DNA from: Candidatus Staskawiczbacteria bacterium RIFOXYB1_FULL_37_44
GTDB lineage: Bacteria; Patescibacteriota; Minisyncoccia; Minisyncoccales; Staskawiczbacteraceae
Direction: 5' to 3'
DNA length: 41,333 nucleotides
NCBI GenBank assembly: GCA_001822065.1
Contig: MHPJ01000010.1
Span: 1-41,333 of the forward strand
Of the stretch, positions 9,244-22,989 are shown in pieces (position 1 is the stretch's first letter; each line of letters opens with the position of its first letter). Below the pieces are notes generated by a model that was not told where the DNA came from, did no database searches, and was given only the letters and a program-made list of their open reading frames with translations. The position numbers and the translations under genes are program-made.

Positions 9244-9250
9244 CAAAAAA

Positions 9251-9384
9251 AACGGCTCTGGGGTTGGAGGTAGTTTTATTGTCTGGGACAATAAGAAAGA
9301 TTTTTTTGAGGAGCGGTCGAGCCGGAGCAAGACCGTCCGAAGCTGAAAAAAATCCAAATAAATACCTCCAACTCCAGAGCCGTT
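9251..9384 (+). ncRNA. Structured intergenic element, predicted three-way junction
   Basis: The 188-base gap between the ATPase gene and ruvB is dominated by nested inverted repeats. An outer helix of 22 pairs with one mismatch joins 9251-9272 (AACGGCTCTGGGG...) to 9363-9384. Inside are a perfect 8-bp hairpin, TTATTGTC-TGG-GACAATAA (9276-9294), and a longer arm in which GATTTTTTT (9299-9307) pairs with AAAAAAATC (9346-9354) and GCGGTC (9313-9318) with GACCGT (9331-9336). The shape fits a structured RNA or a small transposable element. Strand is arbitrary because an inverted repeat reads similarly on both. No known RNA family was recognised. Confidence 0.5.
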
Positions 9385-9431
9385 TCCGGTGTATTTTTCA
9401 ATATCTTTAATATTAGCATTTTTTAAAGTAT

Positions 9432-10445
9432 ATGTCAAGAGTTTTAGACCAAAAACCCGCCAAAGAAGATGAAGCGCTAGATTCTGCTTTAAGACCTAAA
9501 ATTTGGGCTGATTACATTGGCCAAGAAAAAATTAAGGAAAATATAAGAATAATTTTAACTGCCGCAAAGCAAAGAGGTCAAAGTCCGGATCATTTGCTGT
9601 TTTATGGAAATTCAGGATTGGGAAAAACTACGCTGGCTCAACTGGTGGCTATGGAAATGGGTAAAGAAATAAAAATTTCATCAGGTCCGGCGATTGAACG
9701 CGCTGGCGATTTGGCTGCAATTTTGACAAATTTAAACGATGGCGATGTTTTGTTTTTAGATGAAATCCATCGCATCAGCAACACAGTTGAAGAATATTTA
9801 TACCCGGCAATGGAAGACTACAAACTAAATTTAATTTTGGGCAAAGGCCCGATGGCGCGAACAATGGAGTTAAAGCTGCCTAAATTTACTTTAATTGGAG
9901 CAACAACAAGGCCGGCGCTATTGTCTGCTCCGCTAAGAAACCGCTTTGGCGCCATTTTTCAGCTTGATTTTTATAAACCAGAAGATATTGAAAAAATAAT
10001 TGAAAGATCTGCTAGAATTTTGAATATACAAATAGAACCAGATGCCGTAAAAGCTGTTGCCGAACGTTCGCGCTTTACTCCTCGCGTTGCCAACCGGCTT
10101 TTAAAAAGGGCCAGAGATTTTGCCGAAGTCCAGTCGGACGGAAAAATTACAAAAGAAATATCAGCGAAGGCGCTGGAATCTTTAGATATAGATAAAATGG
10201 GTTTAGAACTCGGAGACAGAAAAATTTTGCTGGCGCTTATTGAAAAATTTGACGGAGGTCCGGTTGGGCTTCAAACCTTGTCGGCTGCTGCTATGGAAGA
10301 AGAAGACACAATTTTAGATATTTACGAACCGTATTTAATGCAAATGGGATTTATTGAGCGAACGCCCCGTGGCAGAATTGCCTCAAAAATGGCTTATGAA
10401 CACCTCGGCATAAAAATAAAAAACTCTCAAAGCCAATTAATTTAA
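9432..10445 (+). CDS. ruvB: Holliday junction branch migration helicase RuvB
   Basis: A 337-aa AAA+ motor that drives branch migration with RuvA. Visible are 'ALRPKIWADYIGQEKIKENI', Walker A 'GNSGLGKTTLAQLVA', Walker B 'DVLFLDEIHRI', sensor 1 'TLIGATTRPALLSAPLRNRF' and the winged-helix end 'YLMQMGFIERTPRGRIAS', which normally reads 'G.i.RTPRGR'. Length is normal. ruvA and ruvC are not in the window. The gene is followed by a palindromic repeat element. Confidence 0.97.
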   Translation: MSRVLDQKPAKEDEALDSALRPKIWADYIGQEKIKENIRIILTAAKQRGQSPDHLLFYGNSGLGKTTLAQLVAMEMGKEIKISSGPAIERAGDLAAILTNLNDGDVLFLDEIHRISNTVEEYLYPAMEDYKLNLILGKGPMARTMELKLPKFTLIGATTRPALLSAPLRNRFGAIFQLDFYKPEDIEKIIERSARILNIQIEPDAVKAVAERSRFTPRVANRLLKRARDFAEVQSDGKITKEISAKALESLDIDKMGLELGDRKILLALIEKFDGGPVGLQTLSAAAMEEEDTILDIYEPYLMQMGFIERTPRGRIASKMAYEHLGIKIKNSQSQLI

Positions 10446-10456
10446 ATCTGGCTGTT

Positions 10457-10549
10457 GTCATTGCGAGGAGGCTCGCAAGCCGACGTGGCAATCTATAACT
10501 CTGGATTGCCACGCTCGTCGCCCAAAGGGCGAACTTCGCTTGCAATGAC
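10457..10549. repeat. Palindromic repeat element, 'gtcattgcgagg' type
   Basis: It starts GTCATTGCGAGG and ends GCTTGCAATGAC, with the internal pair GTGGCAATC / GATTGCCAC. Related elements lie at 15401-15490 and 28878-28969, and half-copies are inside tsaE and iorA. It fills the gap between ruvB and the terminator of the converging LEPR-motif gene. Confidence 0.85.
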
Positions 10550-10554
10550 AATGC

Positions 10555-10644: not shown

Positions 10645-12195
10645 TCAGCCCATCCCGCCGCCATCGCCGGAGTAAATGCTCCAGCGGGTCTGATCAGCGT
10701 ACTGCTCGAAGATCTTGTCGGTCGCCAGAGCCGAGCCGTCGGGACGCTTGGCGCTGATGCCAGCATCTCCCGAAAGCTGCGCTCGCAAATATCCATACTG
10801 GATATCGTCGCGCGCATCGGCGCGAATCTCAAAGCTGTAAGTATTTCCTACGGGGCTGGTGAGCAAAAGGCCGTCAAAGACAACCTGCTCGTTCACCAAC
10901 TCGCCCGCCACCGAGCCGTCGAAAATGCCGTCGCTGTTGGTGTCCCAGTGCATCACATAATTAGTGAAACTGGACAGATCACCTTGGGTAGCCGTGATAG
11001 CCACATGGGTGATGTACATCAAGCTGGTACTGGAAGCCGTGAAGGCCTCCAAAACCAAATCCGGCGTTCCCGGCTCCACAGTCTGCCAGTTTGGCGAAGC
11101 GGTCGGGATCTCTTTGACCACCAGCTCGTGATCAGCGGACTTAAACGAGAACAGAGTGGCGACGTTGGTGTAAAGCCGAATTTGCGCTCCTGTGGCTGGC
11201 GCCGTGCCATTGACCATAGTGCCCTGCAAGGGCTTACCGGTTTCCGTGTTCACTGCGTTCAGCCCCGACGTATCGAAGGCCAATTGCAGATGGTCAGAAA
11301 CTGGCACGGCAACGATGTCGCCACGCACCTCGTATCGGCCGTCAGGCATGTCTGCATCGGCAAGATTAAAACTGAGCTTGCCGTTGGACACGGTTCCGGC
11401 GCTACAAACACTCACGTCGAAAACATCGTCCCAGTTGGTATCTGCCCACAAAGAGTAAGCCGCATCATCGAGATCACCCTGTTGAGCCGTAAAGCTCATG
11501 GTCTTGGGCTGAACCAATTCGGACTGCCAAGAATAAAACTTCAGCAGGCTGACGCCTTGCTGGTCAATTTCCACAGACCCGTACTTGTCGCCAGATTCTT
11601 GGCTGACGCTCCAGGACTGCGTGTCCATGGGTTGTAAAATGGGATCCACGCCGCCGTACCTGACGTTTTCAAACGGCAGATCCACACCCCGCAAATTGAC
11701 GCCCGAGACCAACGCGATGTCCAACCCAATGTCCTCGCCGGACAAATAAGAGTTAAACTTCGCATAAACCTCGATATGGAGCCCCTTTTTGGACAGCCAC
11801 ACCGGCCTGTAGACGTCTGTGCTAATGACGTCGTAATAGTCCGGCCTCGCGGATGCGAGATTGGCCTCACAGCCATCCTTGGACTTGCCGTTCAAATCGG
11901 CCATCACCACCACTTCGGTGATGTTGTACCGCAGTTCGGCGCTTCCAAAAGCTGGCAAGAAGTCAAACCCCGTGAGCCGAGCGCGATTGCGACCGGTCTT
12001 CAGAGTCATGTCCAACAGCTCCACTTTGGAAGCGCCGGGCAGAACGCCCGAAGCCAACAATGGGATCTTGTTGTTGATCACATCGATGAACGGCATGGGC
12101 GCAGGTCTTAATGTCCCGCTCCCGCCGCCGGCCAGCATTTGCCGAGGCTCCAACGACTCAACGCGCAACTTCCGGCTCGTCAAATTCCTACGCAT
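10645..12195 (-). CDS. Secreted repeat protein with Planctomycetes-type LEPR N-terminal motif
   Basis: A 516-aa protein whose N-terminus, MRRNLTSRKLRVESLEPRQM followed by LAGGG, matches the 'R.L..E.LEPR.LLA' export signal found on Planctomycetes extracellular proteins. The body shows at least two related segments, each with an acidic calcium-site-like turn ('ADTNWDDVFD' about residue 265, 'WDTNSDGIFD' about residue 430), suggesting tandem beta-rich domains. The gene is far richer in G+C than its neighbours. I start at 12195, where TAAGGAG lies seven bases upstream; an ATG nine codons earlier has no such site. It has its own promoter (12259-12287) and terminator (10555-10597). Function is unknown; acquisition by transfer is inferred. 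Confidence 0.75.
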   Translation of the reverse strand: MRRNLTSRKLRVESLEPRQMLAGGGSGTLRPAPMPFIDVINNKIPLLASGVLPGASKVELLDMTLKTGRNRARLTGFDFLPAFGSAELRYNITEVVVMADLNGKSKDGCEANLASARPDYYDVISTDVYRPVWLSKKGLHIEVYAKFNSYLSGEDIGLDIALVSGVNLRGVDLPFENVRYGGVDPILQPMDTQSWSVSQESGDKYGSVEIDQQGVSLLKFYSWQSELVQPKTMSFTAQQGDLDDAAYSLWADTNWDDVFDVSVCSAGTVSNGKLSFNLADADMPDGRYEVRGDIVAVPVSDHLQLAFDTSGLNAVNTETGKPLQGTMVNGTAPATGAQIRLYTNVATLFSFKSADHELVVKEIPTASPNWQTVEPGTPDLVLEAFTASSTSLMYITHVAITATQGDLSSFTNYVMHWDTNSDGIFDGSVAGELVNEQVVFDGLLLTSPVGNTYSFEIRADARDDIQYGYLRAQLSGDAGISAKRPDGSALATDKIFEQYADQTRWSIYSGDGGGMG

Positions 12196-12258
12196 CACAG
12201 CTCTCCTTAAATCAATGAACACTTTAACAAAAAAGAGGAACCATTCCTCTCTTTATTT

Positions 12259-18961: not shown

Positions 18962-19141
18962 ATGTTGGTACTTTCCCGAAAGAAGAACGAGAGTATTGTC
19001 ATCAATGATGACATCACAATCGTTGTCGTTGAAATCCGGGGCGACAAAGTGCGCCTTGGTATTGAAGCGCCCAAAGAAGTTCCGGTGCATCGGCGAGAGG
19101 TTTTCGACGCCATCCGTCGCAACGATGCGACGGTCAAGTAG
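18962..19141 (+). CDS. csrA: Carbon storage regulator CsrA
   Basis: A 59-aa RNA-binding regulator that dimerises and binds GGA-containing hairpins near ribosome-binding sites. The sequence follows the family closely: 'MLVLSRKKNESIVINDDI', 'VVVEIRGDKVRLGIEAPKEV', then PVHRREVFDAI; the RNA-contacting Arg at position 6 and 'PVHRREV' are present. I use the ATG at 18962, preceded by AGGAGG seven to eight bases upstream; an earlier in-frame ATG would add residues unlike any CsrA. The gene is GC-richer than its neighbours and looks most like Planctomycetes CsrA. It has its own promoter and terminator, and the GGA in its Shine-Dalgarno suggests autoregulation. Confidence 0.95.
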   Translation: MLVLSRKKNESIVINDDITIVVVEIRGDKVRLGIEAPKEVPVHRREVFDAIRRNDATVK

Positions 19142-19232: not shown

Positions 19233-19961
19233 ATGATTATAGATACGCATTCGCATTTAAGCTTTAAAGCATACAATACAGATAGAGATGAGGTTATAAA
19301 ACGCAATTTAGAAAATGGCGTTGTTTGTATTGATGTTGGAACTGATTATAATTCAAGTAAAAAAGCTGTTGAATTGGCAAAAAAATATGAAAATATTTAT
19401 GCGTCTGTTGGCATGCACCCCGAAGTTGTTGATGAAGAATTCGACAAAGAAAAATATATAGAATTAGCGAAGTCAAAAAAGATTGTTGCTATTGGGGAGA
19501 TCGGGCTGGATTATAAGTTTAAAAACGAAGGTCAAAAAAAACTTTTTATTGAGCAATTAGAATTAGCAAAAGAATTAAATTTGCCGGTTATTATTCACTG
19601 CCGCGCTGCTCACAATGATGTGCTGGAAATTCTTAAAAACTACAAACTATCCGGAGTTATTCACTGTTTTACAGGCAATTGGCAAGAAGCTCAAAAATAT
19701 TTGGAGTTGGGTTTTTATTTGGGAATTAACGGAATAATCGATAAATTAAATTTGGACGAAGTTATAAAAAATTGTTCGTTAGATAAAATTTTGGTTGAGA
19801 CAGATTGTCCGTATTTGACTCCGAAAGAAGAAGGAACTAAACGAAATGAGCCAATTTTTGTAAAACATGTTATTCAAAAAATTGCAGGCTTACGAGAAAT
19901 TACTTTTGACGAAGTTGCCTCTGCAACTTTTCAAAACGCAAAAAACCTATTTAGAATATAA
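19233..19961 (+). CDS. tatD: TatD-family metal-dependent hydrolase / 3'-5' DNase
   Basis: A 242-aa TIM-barrel hydrolase. The metal ligands are visible: 'IIDTHSHLSF' (HxH), 'AIGEIGLDYKF' (Glu), 'LPVIIHCRAAH' (His), 'GVIHCFTGNWQEA' (His) and 'LVETDCPYLTP' (Asp). TatD proteins act as exonucleases in DNA repair and possibly as quality-control deacylases. Length is slightly below the usual 255-265. It starts 30 bases after the csrA terminator and ends seven bases before the -35 of the structured RNA candidate. Confidence 0.93.
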   Translation: MIIDTHSHLSFKAYNTDRDEVIKRNLENGVVCIDVGTDYNSSKKAVELAKKYENIYASVGMHPEVVDEEFDKEKYIELAKSKKIVAIGEIGLDYKFKNEGQKKLFIEQLELAKELNLPVIIHCRAAHNDVLEILKNYKLSGVIHCFTGNWQEAQKYLELGFYLGINGIIDKLNLDEVIKNCSLDKILVETDCPYLTPKEEGTKRNEPIFVKHVIQKIAGLREITFDEVASATFQNAKNLFRI

Positions 19962-19967
19962 AACATC

Positions 19968-19996
19968 TTGACAGTCAGGTGTGTTTTTGGTAACTT
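19968..19996 (+). promoter_or_regulatory. Predicted promoter of the structured RNA candidate
   Basis: TTGACA (19968-19973), 17-base spacer, TAACTT (19991-19996). The -35 is a perfect consensus, the -10 weak. It begins directly after the tatD stop. Confidence 0.5.
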
Positions 19997-19997
19997 T

Positions 19998-20356
19998 AAT
20001 TTGATGATGCTCCTTTGATCGTGAGGAGAGGGGCCGCTGATAGTTTCCCGCTTAGGATATGGTGTCTCAGACGTGAAACTATTATGTCCCTCTCCTCGTT
20101 TTGAGGAATTTGTTCTTTGATAGCGTCCTATGCGAGAAGAAGGGTTGAAGACTTTCCGTTTTTAGCCCACGGGAATGATAGGAAGGCTCGTCGCTTTCCT
20201 TCGGTTGCCTCCGTCGCAGCCTTTCTTCTCGCTTTGTCTTATCAAACCCATCTGGGTTTGGTTATAGCCTTCGGGCAAACCCCAAAGAGAGATATTATAG
20301 TACCGCGCGGTCATTCTTGCGTATTATTTCCCCATCTCTCTGCGGGGCTTTTTTTA
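19998..20356 (+). ncRNA. Candidate structured non-coding RNA, about 350 nt
   Basis: This region has no convincing protein but dense complementarity. A 5' stem-loop pairs GAGGAGAGGG (20023-20032) with CCCTCTCCTC (20088-20097), and inside it ATAGTTTC with GAAACTAT. A second domain is closed by TTTGATA (20116-20122) with TATCAAA (20240-20246) and GCGAGAAGAAGGG (20132-20144) with CCTTTCTTCTCGC (20220-20232). Then CAAACCCA/TGGGTTTG (20243-20260) competes with GGGTTTG/CAAACCC (20254-20282). The 3' end is a terminator. Size is close to tmRNA or RNase P RNA, but I see neither a tRNA-like T loop, a tag reading frame, nor the RNase P core. Identity is open; a leuS leader is the main alternative. Confidence 0.55.
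20280..20355 (+). terminator. Terminator at the end of the structured RNA candidate
   Basis: CCCC (20280-20283) and AGAGAGAT (20286-20293) pair with ATCTCTCT (20334-20341) and GGGG (20344-20347), followed by C and seven T. The loop is long (about 40 bases). The CCCC side overlaps CAAACCC, which can instead pair with GGGTTTG upstream. Confidence 0.65.
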
Positions 20357-20401
20357 TAAACTTTTTGCAAAAAAATACCAAAATAAGTCTACGCCATATT
20401 A

Positions 20402-20429
20402 TTGCTATAGCATTGGTGCGGAGTATAGT
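20402..20429 (+). promoter_or_regulatory. Possible promoter of leuS
   Basis: TTGCTA (20402-20407), 16-base spacer, TATAGT (20424-20429), about 80 bases before leuS and after the preceding terminator. Confidence 0.4.
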
Positions 20430-20508
20430 ATACTTTGTATTTAAAGTAGTTATTTGTCAAGATTTACGAAGTTAAAGATATTTGGTAAAATAAAAAATTA
20501 AAGAAAGA

Positions 20509-22989
20509 ATGAAAAGATACAGTCCAAAATTAATAGAGAAAAAATGGCAGGAGAAGTGGTATGGCTCGGGCGTTTTTAAGGCGCAGAACGGTTCTAAAAA
20601 AAGGAAATTTTATCTTTTAGTTGAGTTTCCTTATCCGTCTGGAGACGGGCTTCATGTTGGACATTGCCGAAGCTACACTGCTTTAGACGTAATTGCCAGA
20701 AAAAAAAGAATGGAGGGCAATAATGTTTTATTTCCAATTGGTTGGGACGCTTTTGGCTTGCCTACAGAAAATTATGCTATAAAAAAAGGAGTCCATCCGT
20801 CTATTGTTACGAAAAAAAACACAGATAATTTTAGACGGCAAATGAAAGAATTGGGGTTTTCTTTTGACTGGTCAAGAGAGATAAATACCACAGACCCTAA
20901 ATATTACAAATGGACGCAATGGATATTTTTAAAATTATTTGAGTCGGGATTAGCCTATAAAGATAAAATTGCAATAAATTGGTGTCCTAAGGACAAGATT
21001 GGTTTAGCAAACGAAGAAGTTATTGGCGGAAAATGCGAAAGATGTGGAACAAAAGTTGAAAAAAAAGAAAAAGAGCAGTGGATGATAAAAATTACAAAAT
21101 ATGCTGAAAGGCTGGTGAAAGACTTGGACAATGTAAATTTTTTAGAAAAAATAAAAACACAGCAGAAAGAATGGATTGGCGAGAGCCACGGAGCAATTGT
21201 AAAATTTTCTGTTGAAGGGATTGAAGAAAGTATTGAAGTTTTTACCACGAGGATGGACACGATATTTTCGGGCACATTTTTAATTTTGGCTCCCGGGCAT
21301 AATTTTATAGAAAAATATAAAAACAAAATTGAAAATATTGATGAGGTTTTAAAATATAAAGAAGAAGCAAAAAACAGCTCGGACATTGATAGGACAAATT
21401 TGGACAAAGATGTGACAGGCGTGCAGTTAAAAGGAATTGTTGCCAAAAATCCGGCAACAAACGAAGAAATGCCTGTTTGGATTGCGGATTTTGTTTTAGA
21501 GCAATATGGAACCGGAGCTGTTTTTGCCGACGCGCACGACAAGAGGGATTTTAAAATGGCAAAAAAATATGGCATTGCCTTGCGTACCTCAATTAAGCCA
21601 AACGATGAACTTTTGTGGCAAAAAGTAAAAAATTTGGAAGAATGTTTTGAAGGCGATGGGACATTGTACAATTCTAGCCAGTTTGACGGAATGTCTTCAG
21701 CAATTGCAAGACCTTTAATTATTGCATGGCTTTTGGGAAAGGGCTTGGCAAAACCAAAAACAAGCTATAAATTGCGCGATTGGGTTTTTTCGCGCCAGCA
21801 TTACTGGGGCGAACCCATTCCGCTTATTTTTTGTAGTCAGTGTGGTTGGCAACCTGTTCCTGAAAAGGATTTACCAATAGAATTGCCAAAAGTCAAAAAT
21901 TATAAACCAACAGACACGGGTGAATCGCCTTTGGCCGCAATTTCAAAATGGATAAATGTAAAATGCCCAAAATGCAAAGGCTTTGCAAAACGGGAAACCG
22001 ACACAATGCCAAACTGGGCAGGATCAAATTGGTACTACCTCGCATATGCTATGCTCGGAAATTCGAAATCCGAAGCACGAAATCCGAAACTCGACTGGAA
22101 TGAAAAAAATATAAAATACTGGATGAGTGTTGATTGGTATAATGGCGGGATGGAACACACAACTTTGCATTTGCTTTATTCGCGGTTTATTTTTAAATTT
22201 TTATGGGACATCGGGGCGGTTCCAAAACAAATTGGCGCAGAGCCTTACAAAAAAAGAACTTCACATGGAATGGTTTTAGGTGAAGGCGGAATTAAAATGT
22301 CTAAGTCAAAAGGAAATGTAATAAATCCCGATTCTGTTGTAAAACAATATGGAGCAGATACTTTGCGTGTATACGAAATGTTTATGGGGCCTTTTGAGCA
22401 AATGATTCCTTGGGACGCAAAAGGAGTGGTGGGATGCCAGAGATTTTTGGAAAAAATTTATAACCTTGCGCTAAAAATCAATCCGGCTATGAGGCGTGGC
22501 GCAAAGTCAAACAGCGAGTTGGATCCAAAATTTAAATTTTCGCTGAATAAAACAATTAAAAAAATCAGCGAAGACATAGAGGCAATGAAATTTAACACGG
22601 CAGTTTCTTCGCTGATGATTTTGGCAAATAATTTTATTGAAAATAAAGAGTTTATTGCAAAAGAAGATGTGAAGACTTTGCTGTTGCTGTTAAGCCCTTT
22701 TGCTCCGCACTTGGCTGAAGAGCTTTGGCTTGCGTCGAGTTTTAAGGGATTGTGCTGCAATCAAAAATGGCCCAAATATAATCCAAAATTTATTGAAGAA
22801 GAAAAAGTCTTGCTGATTGTGCAAATAAACGGTAAGGTTAGAGATAAAATAGAAGCTGATTTTGGAATTTCCCAAAAAGAAGCTGAAAGTTTAGCATTAA
22901 AATCTGAAAAAATAAAAGTTTTGGTTGGCGGAAACAAACCTGTAAAAATAATTTTCGTGGCAAATAAATTAATTAATATTGTAATTTAA
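20509..22989 (+). CDS. leuS: Leucyl-tRNA synthetase
   Basis: A class I synthetase (826 aa) charging tRNA-Leu. HIGH appears as HVGH in 'YPSGDGLHVGHCRSYTALDV', KMSKS is intact ('GGIKMSKSKGNVINPD'), and the CP1 editing domain is present with 'VFTTRMDTIFSGTF' (T-rich region) and 'YGTGAVFADAHDKRD', where the usual 'VPAHD' reads 'ADAHD'. Two zinc-type Cys clusters are visible (CPKD...CERC and CPKC). A repeat-encoded insert, NSKSEARNPK, lies about residue 520. This is the first gene of a run with iorA, iorB, a nucleotidyltransferase and tsaC, with gaps of six bases or fewer, or overlaps. Confidence 0.97.
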   Translation: MKRYSPKLIEKKWQEKWYGSGVFKAQNGSKKRKFYLLVEFPYPSGDGLHVGHCRSYTALDVIARKKRMEGNNVLFPIGWDAFGLPTENYAIKKGVHPSIVTKKNTDNFRRQMKELGFSFDWSREINTTDPKYYKWTQWIFLKLFESGLAYKDKIAINWCPKDKIGLANEEVIGGKCERCGTKVEKKEKEQWMIKITKYAERLVKDLDNVNFLEKIKTQQKEWIGESHGAIVKFSVEGIEESIEVFTTRMDTIFSGTFLILAPGHNFIEKYKNKIENIDEVLKYKEEAKNSSDIDRTNLDKDVTGVQLKGIVAKNPATNEEMPVWIADFVLEQYGTGAVFADAHDKRDFKMAKKYGIALRTSIKPNDELLWQKVKNLEECFEGDGTLYNSSQFDGMSSAIARPLIIAWLLGKGLAKPKTSYKLRDWVFSRQHYWGEPIPLIFCSQCGWQPVPEKDLPIELPKVKNYKPTDTGESPLAAISKWINVKCPKCKGFAKRETDTMPNWAGSNWYYLAYAMLGNSKSEARNPKLDWNEKNIKYWMSVDWYNGGMEHTTLHLLYSRFIFKFLWDIGAVPKQIGAEPYKKRTSHGMVLGEGGIKMSKSKGNVINPDSVVKQYGADTLRVYEMFMGPFEQMIPWDAKGVVGCQRFLEKIYNLALKINPAMRRGAKSNSELDPKFKFSLNKTIKKISEDIEAMKFNTAVSSLMILANNFIENKEFIAKEDVKTLLLLLSPFAPHLAEELWLASSFKGLCCNQKWPKYNPKFIEEEKVLLIVQINGKVRDKIEADFGISQKEAESLALKSEKIKVLVGGNKPVKIIFVANKLINIVI
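22057..22090. repeat. In-frame repeat inside leuS
   Basis: GAAATTCGAAATCCGAAGCA followed by CGAAATCCGAAAC is a near-tandem repeat of CGAAATCCGAA, read as GNSKSEARNPK. It belongs with the AT-rich repeats in metG and pth. Confidence 0.7.

Follow-up and report, generated by a model that had tools for sequence, protein, structure and literature searches.

The gap of about 550 nt between tatD and leuS in a Ca. Staskawiczbacteria-type Patescibacterium, whose reduced genome comes to 0.84 Mb (836 kb) in 26 contigs, probably holds an independent, lineage-restricted gene for a structured RNA, one that would act in trans on a target we leave unspecified; we put the probability of this reading at roughly 0.6. 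The window analysed here is one whole contig of 41,333 bases, in which csrA, tatD, the gap and leuS follow one another in that order (Table 1). Relatives of its leuS group the genome with Candidatus Staskawiczbacteria within the Patescibacteria. Sequence comparison supports shared ancestry with a copy in a sister species, selection on the stem of one hairpin (P2), the absence of coding, and separateness from leuS; we infer transcription, trans action and the contact site of the RNA. A first-pass annotation had placed at this locus a separate, highly structured unit of about 350 nt with a promoter box and a terminator; the sequence evidence supports this (fold z -6.8), and every one of the repeats, stems, -35 box and terminator that it named was found in its place.

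Table 1. Features of the csrA to leuS region, in window positions.
Feature	Position	Strand	Basis or remark
csrA, 59 aa, upstream neighbour	18962..19141	+	PF02599, 92.8 bits
tatD	19233..19961	+	PF01026, 272.9 bits
Predicted sigma-70 promoter of the RNA: -35 TTGACA 19968-19973, 17-nt spacer, -10 TAACTT 19991-19996	19968..19996	+	Sequence
Predicted non-coding RNA, ~350 nt	20003..20356	+	Start inferred from promoter, end from terminator
P1, long hairpin near the 5' end: 10-bp perfect stem 20023-20032/20088-20097, inner arm 20040-20050/20072-20082	20023..20097	+	Pair probabilities 0.98-1.0
Most conserved stretch, TCCTCGTTTTGAGGAATTTGTTCTTTG; in the homologue TCCTCGTTTTG----ATTTGCTCTTTG	20093..20119	+	Fold and alignment
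BoxA-like TGTTCTTTGA; in the homologue TGCTCTTTGT	20111..20120	+	Assignment not supported by the family's rRNA leaders
P2, hairpin: 13-bp basal stem 20132-20144/20220-20232, interior unconserved	20132..20232	+	Compensatory changes
Hairpin A, CAAACCCA 20243-20250/TGGGTTTG 20253-20260	20243..20260	+	7/8 pairs at 0.99-1.0; sequence not conserved
Alternative helix B, GGGTTTG 20254-20260/CAAACCC 20276-20282	20254..20282	+	Geometrically possible, predicted not to form
Terminator domain: CCCC/GGGG 20280-20283/20344-20347 and AGAGAGAT/ATCTCTCT, then T7	20280..20355	+	Pair probabilities 0.89-1.0
Separate predicted leuS promoter, TTTACG-17-TAAAAT	20463..20491	+	Promoter scan and family comparison
leuS	20509..22989	+	

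Predicted promoter, fold and terminator

The -35 box of the predicted RNA promoter is a perfect TTGACA, and the -10 is weak, with TGG before it. A consensus promoter scan of the window did not list this promoter, since the scan required 4 of 6 matches in each hexamer and the weak -10 fails that rule. At the other end, the full terminator stem pairs 20277-20293 with 20334-20350, and the T7 run comes directly after it. A 359-nt stretch spanning the unit folds at -140 kcal/mol, with z -6.8 against 100 dinucleotide shuffles. When 340-nt stretches were scanned along both strands of the window (25 shuffles each), the RNA region ranked first of 364 stretches, itself included, at z -7.8 against a scan median of -0.6. 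Other strong folds in the scan, at 10371+, 17341+ and 10541-, reached z -6.2 to -6.7; the fold of the RNA is exceptional in the window, but not alone.

We picture the RNA in three parts, namely a 5' part, the long hairpin P2 and the terminator domain. Transcription would start at its own TTGACA promoter and end at its own intrinsic terminator. The 5' part would carry the conserved sequence (UCCUCGUUUUG..AUUUGYUCUUUG), partly unpaired; P2 would have its stem held by compensatory changes and its tip free to drift. In trans, the conserved unpaired stretch may contact an RNA or protein partner, with P2 and the terminator stem protecting and positioning it. Within the conserved stretch, AUUUGUUCUUUGAUA is predicted unpaired in this species; the UCUUUG is predicted unpaired here but is paired in the predicted fold of the homologue. 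P1 makes up about a quarter of the RNA and is present in this species only, being missing from the homologue. The 13-bp helix of P2 sits inside an imperfect 16-nt pair, 20132-20147/20217-20232. Two further ideas were discarded: a pairing of UUUGAUA (20116-20122) with UAUCAAA (20240-20246), which has a probability of about 0.01, and an anti-Shine-Dalgarno role for GCUCCUUUG near the 5' end, a sequence that the homologue lacks.

The homologue and the distribution of the RNA

One homologue, about 290 nt long, was found in the tatD-leuS gap of a sister species, Parcubacteria (group) bacterium GW2011_GWA2_37_10 (GTDB contig LBSQ01000021; G015 below). The Smith-Waterman score between the two RNAs is 66, against a maximum of 45 among 1000 dinucleotide shuffles, and is still 66 after promoter and terminator are excluded; for the 3' domain on its own the score is 47, which none of 1000 shuffles reaches, their maximum being 42. 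The homologue has a predicted promoter, TTGACA-17-TATGCT, in the same place as here. It also has the conserved sequence, as TCCTCGTTTTGATTTGCTCTTTG, and the P2 stem, as GCGAGGAAGAAAG/CTTTCTTCCTCGC; its terminator is of the CCCC..GGGG form with a run of T, and its fold has z -5.7. The perfect TTGACA and the strong terminator are thus kept in position in both species. Pair by pair, the P2 stem shows four compensatory changes, one change from G-T to A-T, eight unchanged pairs and none broken, a covariation signal from one stem in one comparison because there are just two sequences; the interior of P2 differs between the species and the stem is kept. The leuS proteins of the two carriers are 81% identical, and the carriers come out as sisters (support 100/99) in a tree built from the leuS of 24 family members, a result that fits a single origin of the RNA. 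Six-frame peptides of the two RNAs gave no mutual match (best E = 0.14), and by this comparison the RNA has no conserved ORF.

Beyond these two species we found no further member. Among the aligned tatD-leuS gaps of the family, only that of G015 is alignable to the RNA; in the others there are small genes, of which some are encoded on the reverse strand. A DNA search against 98 genomes returned, besides the RNA itself, chance-like matches only, and the best of those inspected (L003) falls within a long ORF. A covariance model built from the conserved stretch together with P2 picked out the RNA in 2 of 247 genomes from the order, this one and that of the homologue; the next seven matches were read and resembled chance hits, several apparently lying within genes. 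Applied to the leuS loci of 40 GTDB contigs of the Patescibacteria type, the same model gave no further member, and a pattern search of viral contigs gave 0 matches. The genome-wide scan used strict filters, under which the known G015 copy scored only 37 bits, so that divergent members could be missed.

The site itself is changeable. Adjacent tatD and leuS genes in the same order occur across much of the family, with a gap that ranges from 8 to 2071 nt and holds inserts unrelated between species. This variability, together with the part of the folding that comes from P1 of this species only, gives some footing to the idea of a functionless by-product, either an insert in decay or a mobile palindrome. 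We consider this rather unlikely, given that the unit occupies the same site in two species as far apart as their leuS proteins indicate, that P2 has changed in a compensatory manner, that promoter box and terminator are kept, and that the RNA is single-copy in the genome.

The proposed RNA gene resembles the lineage-specific intergenic small RNAs of other bacteria in having its own promoter box, an intrinsic terminator, a strong fold, one conserved and partly unpaired stretch and a narrow distribution; it differs in being longer than many of them, in having no known target and in its host, a reduced-genome Patescibacterium. It is, then, an unrecorded family but an ordinary kind of thing, and the 'new RNA class' suggested for it earlier is justified in one weak sense only, that of a family known from two species and not yet listed. 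Unlikely, though still worth naming, is the larger claim of an undescribed Patescibacteria RNA family, free-standing and with a conserved contact stretch, whose trans action makes it a global regulator or scaffold; if true, it would do so in cells with very few known regulators. No catalogue of non-coding RNAs from Candidate Phyla Radiation bacteria came up in a limited literature search, so that an example as clean as this one, with its promoter box, terminator, homologue and compensatory changes, offers a concrete target for metatranscriptome checks. The reach of the example is limited, the RNA being known from two species.

Relation to leuS and to known RNAs

The first-pass annotation had proposed that helices A and B are mutually exclusive and that the RNA is a switching attenuator or riboswitch, perhaps one regulating leuS. 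The two helices do overlap on paper. However, the partition function puts the probability of helix A near 0.99 and that of helix B near 0.00, folds that contain B being 8.4 kcal/mol worse. Helix A coexists with the terminator in the minimum-energy fold, so that no genuine competition is expected. The homologue lacks the trio CAAACCC/GGGTTTG/CAAACCC. A helix-switching attenuator with two competing conserved folds is therefore not supported by the folding predictions.

A cis-acting leader, whether T-box-like, attenuator or riboswitch, that controls leuS through helix switching seems very doubtful to us, although the RNA does precede leuS and share its direction, overlapping helices do exist, and UAGUACCGCG in the terminator domain loosely resembles a T-box core. 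The T-box leaders of aminoacyl-tRNA synthetase genes share with it the position upstream of leuS, the terminator and a loosely similar ACCGCG stretch; the RNA differs from them in having no Rfam match, in that leuS has a separate promoter-like sequence, and in being parted from leuS by genes in the homologue's genome. That promoter-like sequence lies just before the leuS start, and a -10 of the TATTAT/TAAAAT type recurs there across much of the family, including relatives without the RNA. In G015 the RNA is set apart from leuS by a PaaX-like gene (PF20803) and a reverse-strand ORF, and in most leuS-bearing genomes of the family no such RNA is visible in the gap. Terminator, separate promoter-like sequence and intervening genes all argue against co-transcription with leuS, and a role of the RNA as leuS leader, or as a regulator of leuS in cis, is judged from sequence to be unlikely.

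As to known families, Rfam 15 at gathering scores found only tRNAs in the whole window; up to E = 5 the RNA region had one chance-level snoRNA match and no match to T-box or other leaders, 6S or SRP RNA, and the homologue had sub-threshold matches only. The earlier proposal of a structured RNA thus came through both of the checks set for it, an Rfam search and a covariation analysis, because no family was assigned and the homologue's P2 carries compensatory changes with no broken pair.

We give very little weight to the notion of a highly divergent universal RNA (6S, tmRNA, RNase P RNA or SRP RNA), in spite of a fitting size and some vacancies among these RNAs. The RNA does not match RF00010 (RNase P RNA); this genome has its RNase P RNA elsewhere (C15:11288-11590), as does the homologue's genome. 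No tmRNA was found in the RNA region or the window by Rfam or ARAGORN, and genome-wide RF00023 gave nothing here beyond tRNA-like matches; tmRNA exceeds the cut-off in 31 of 36 family genomes, that of the homologue (with a normal tmRNA) among them, and its non-detection here could reflect an assembly gap, divergence or loss. 6S RNA (RF00013) went undetected by Rfam in 35 of 36 family genomes and exceeded its cut-off in none of the 36, this one included. Checks for ssrA and ssrS, as had been advised, thus leave tmRNA and 6S RNA undetected elsewhere in this genome, and neither matches the RNA. That the RNA is this genome's missing tmRNA was rejected because the homologue's genome carries both. 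The RNA shares with 6S RNA a long hairpin with internal loops but does not match its covariance model, and its occurrence in 2 of 247 genomes is much narrower than a universal RNA would show.

A transcript guarded by BoxA and NusB/S10, in the manner of rRNA or pre-crRNA leaders, would have the BoxA-like motif load an antitermination complex and P2 serve as an RNase III-type processing stem. The motif matches the BoxA-type consensus used at 10/10 positions (9/10 in the homologue), and this genome encodes nusB (126 bits), but the motif was chosen after the fact and no nusB turned up in the genome of the homologue (93% complete). The family's 16S leaders, moreover, carry a different conserved element, AGTTTTTTAAAG, present in this genome's own leader and in six of the seven others read, and no TGYTCTTTR was found in them; the seventh, that of G015, shows neither element. 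BoxA-containing leaders of rRNA and CRISPR arrays likewise have UGYUCUUUR ahead of a long stem in an untranslated RNA, but the RNA here is upstream of neither rRNA nor CRISPR, and the family's rRNA leaders use another element. We regard this reading as improbable.

Hardly any likelihood attaches to the reading of the RNA as a CsrB/RsmZ-type sponge for CsrA, whose gene lies two genes upstream. The csrA gene lies close to tatD in many family genomes, and CsrB-type RNAs are like this one in size and terminator. However, csrA also keeps its place in genomes where the gap shows no such RNA, and GGA is not enriched (5 here against 6.2 expected, 6 in the homologue against 5.0); ANGGA occurs 0 times here and once in the homologue, and one of the five GGA here is predicted unpaired. 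The many exposed ANGGA motifs of CsrB/RsmZ RNAs are thus not found: the likeness lies in length and in being a free-standing structured RNA within a csrA-encoding genome, the difference in GGA motifs that are neither enriched nor exposed.

The tatD-leuS gap and other parts of the window and genome

Several further observations concern the gap. (i) In G004, G008, G009, G018, G021, G027, G028 and G031 it holds small ORFs that differ from species to species, several of which are encoded on the reverse strand or preceded by strong promoters and 5' hairpins; in its behaviour the gap resembles a hot spot for insertions. (ii) The PaaX-like gene (a Cas2-like domain, tested on the G015 copy), with flanking inverted repeats of the TACGCC type, occupies the same gap in several relatives (L108 in G015, L111 in G007, L113 in G011 and L116 in G023). 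(iii) Where those relatives have the gene, window positions 20370-20450 hold only a similar palindromic stretch, TACGCC..GCTATAGC..GGTGCGGAGTA, perhaps a scar or leftover operator.

The strongly conserved element of the 16S leaders, ATTAGTTTTTTAAAGTTGTTTCGAAT, seen at L126, L234, L235 and L237-L240 (the genome's own leader and six of the seven others read), is possibly the family's BoxA. In this genome (G000) the 16S rRNA match at C4:64635-67094 is split, with about 680 bases between two of its parts, which suggests that the gene holds insertions (introns). An inverted element, TCATTGCGAG...GCAATGACA, occurs after ruvB in the window (10455-10552) and within the 16S region at L126:1013-1110, and looks like a dispersed repeat of the REP/MITE type.

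Elsewhere in the window, a long inverted repeat (26 nt, 92% complementary; fold z -5.3) lies at 9250-9385 (+) between two genes before ruvB. A 525-aa protein encoded at 10645-12222 (-) has a start, ..ESLEPRQMLAGG.., that resembles the LEPR-type start of planctomycete surface proteins and was unexpected here.
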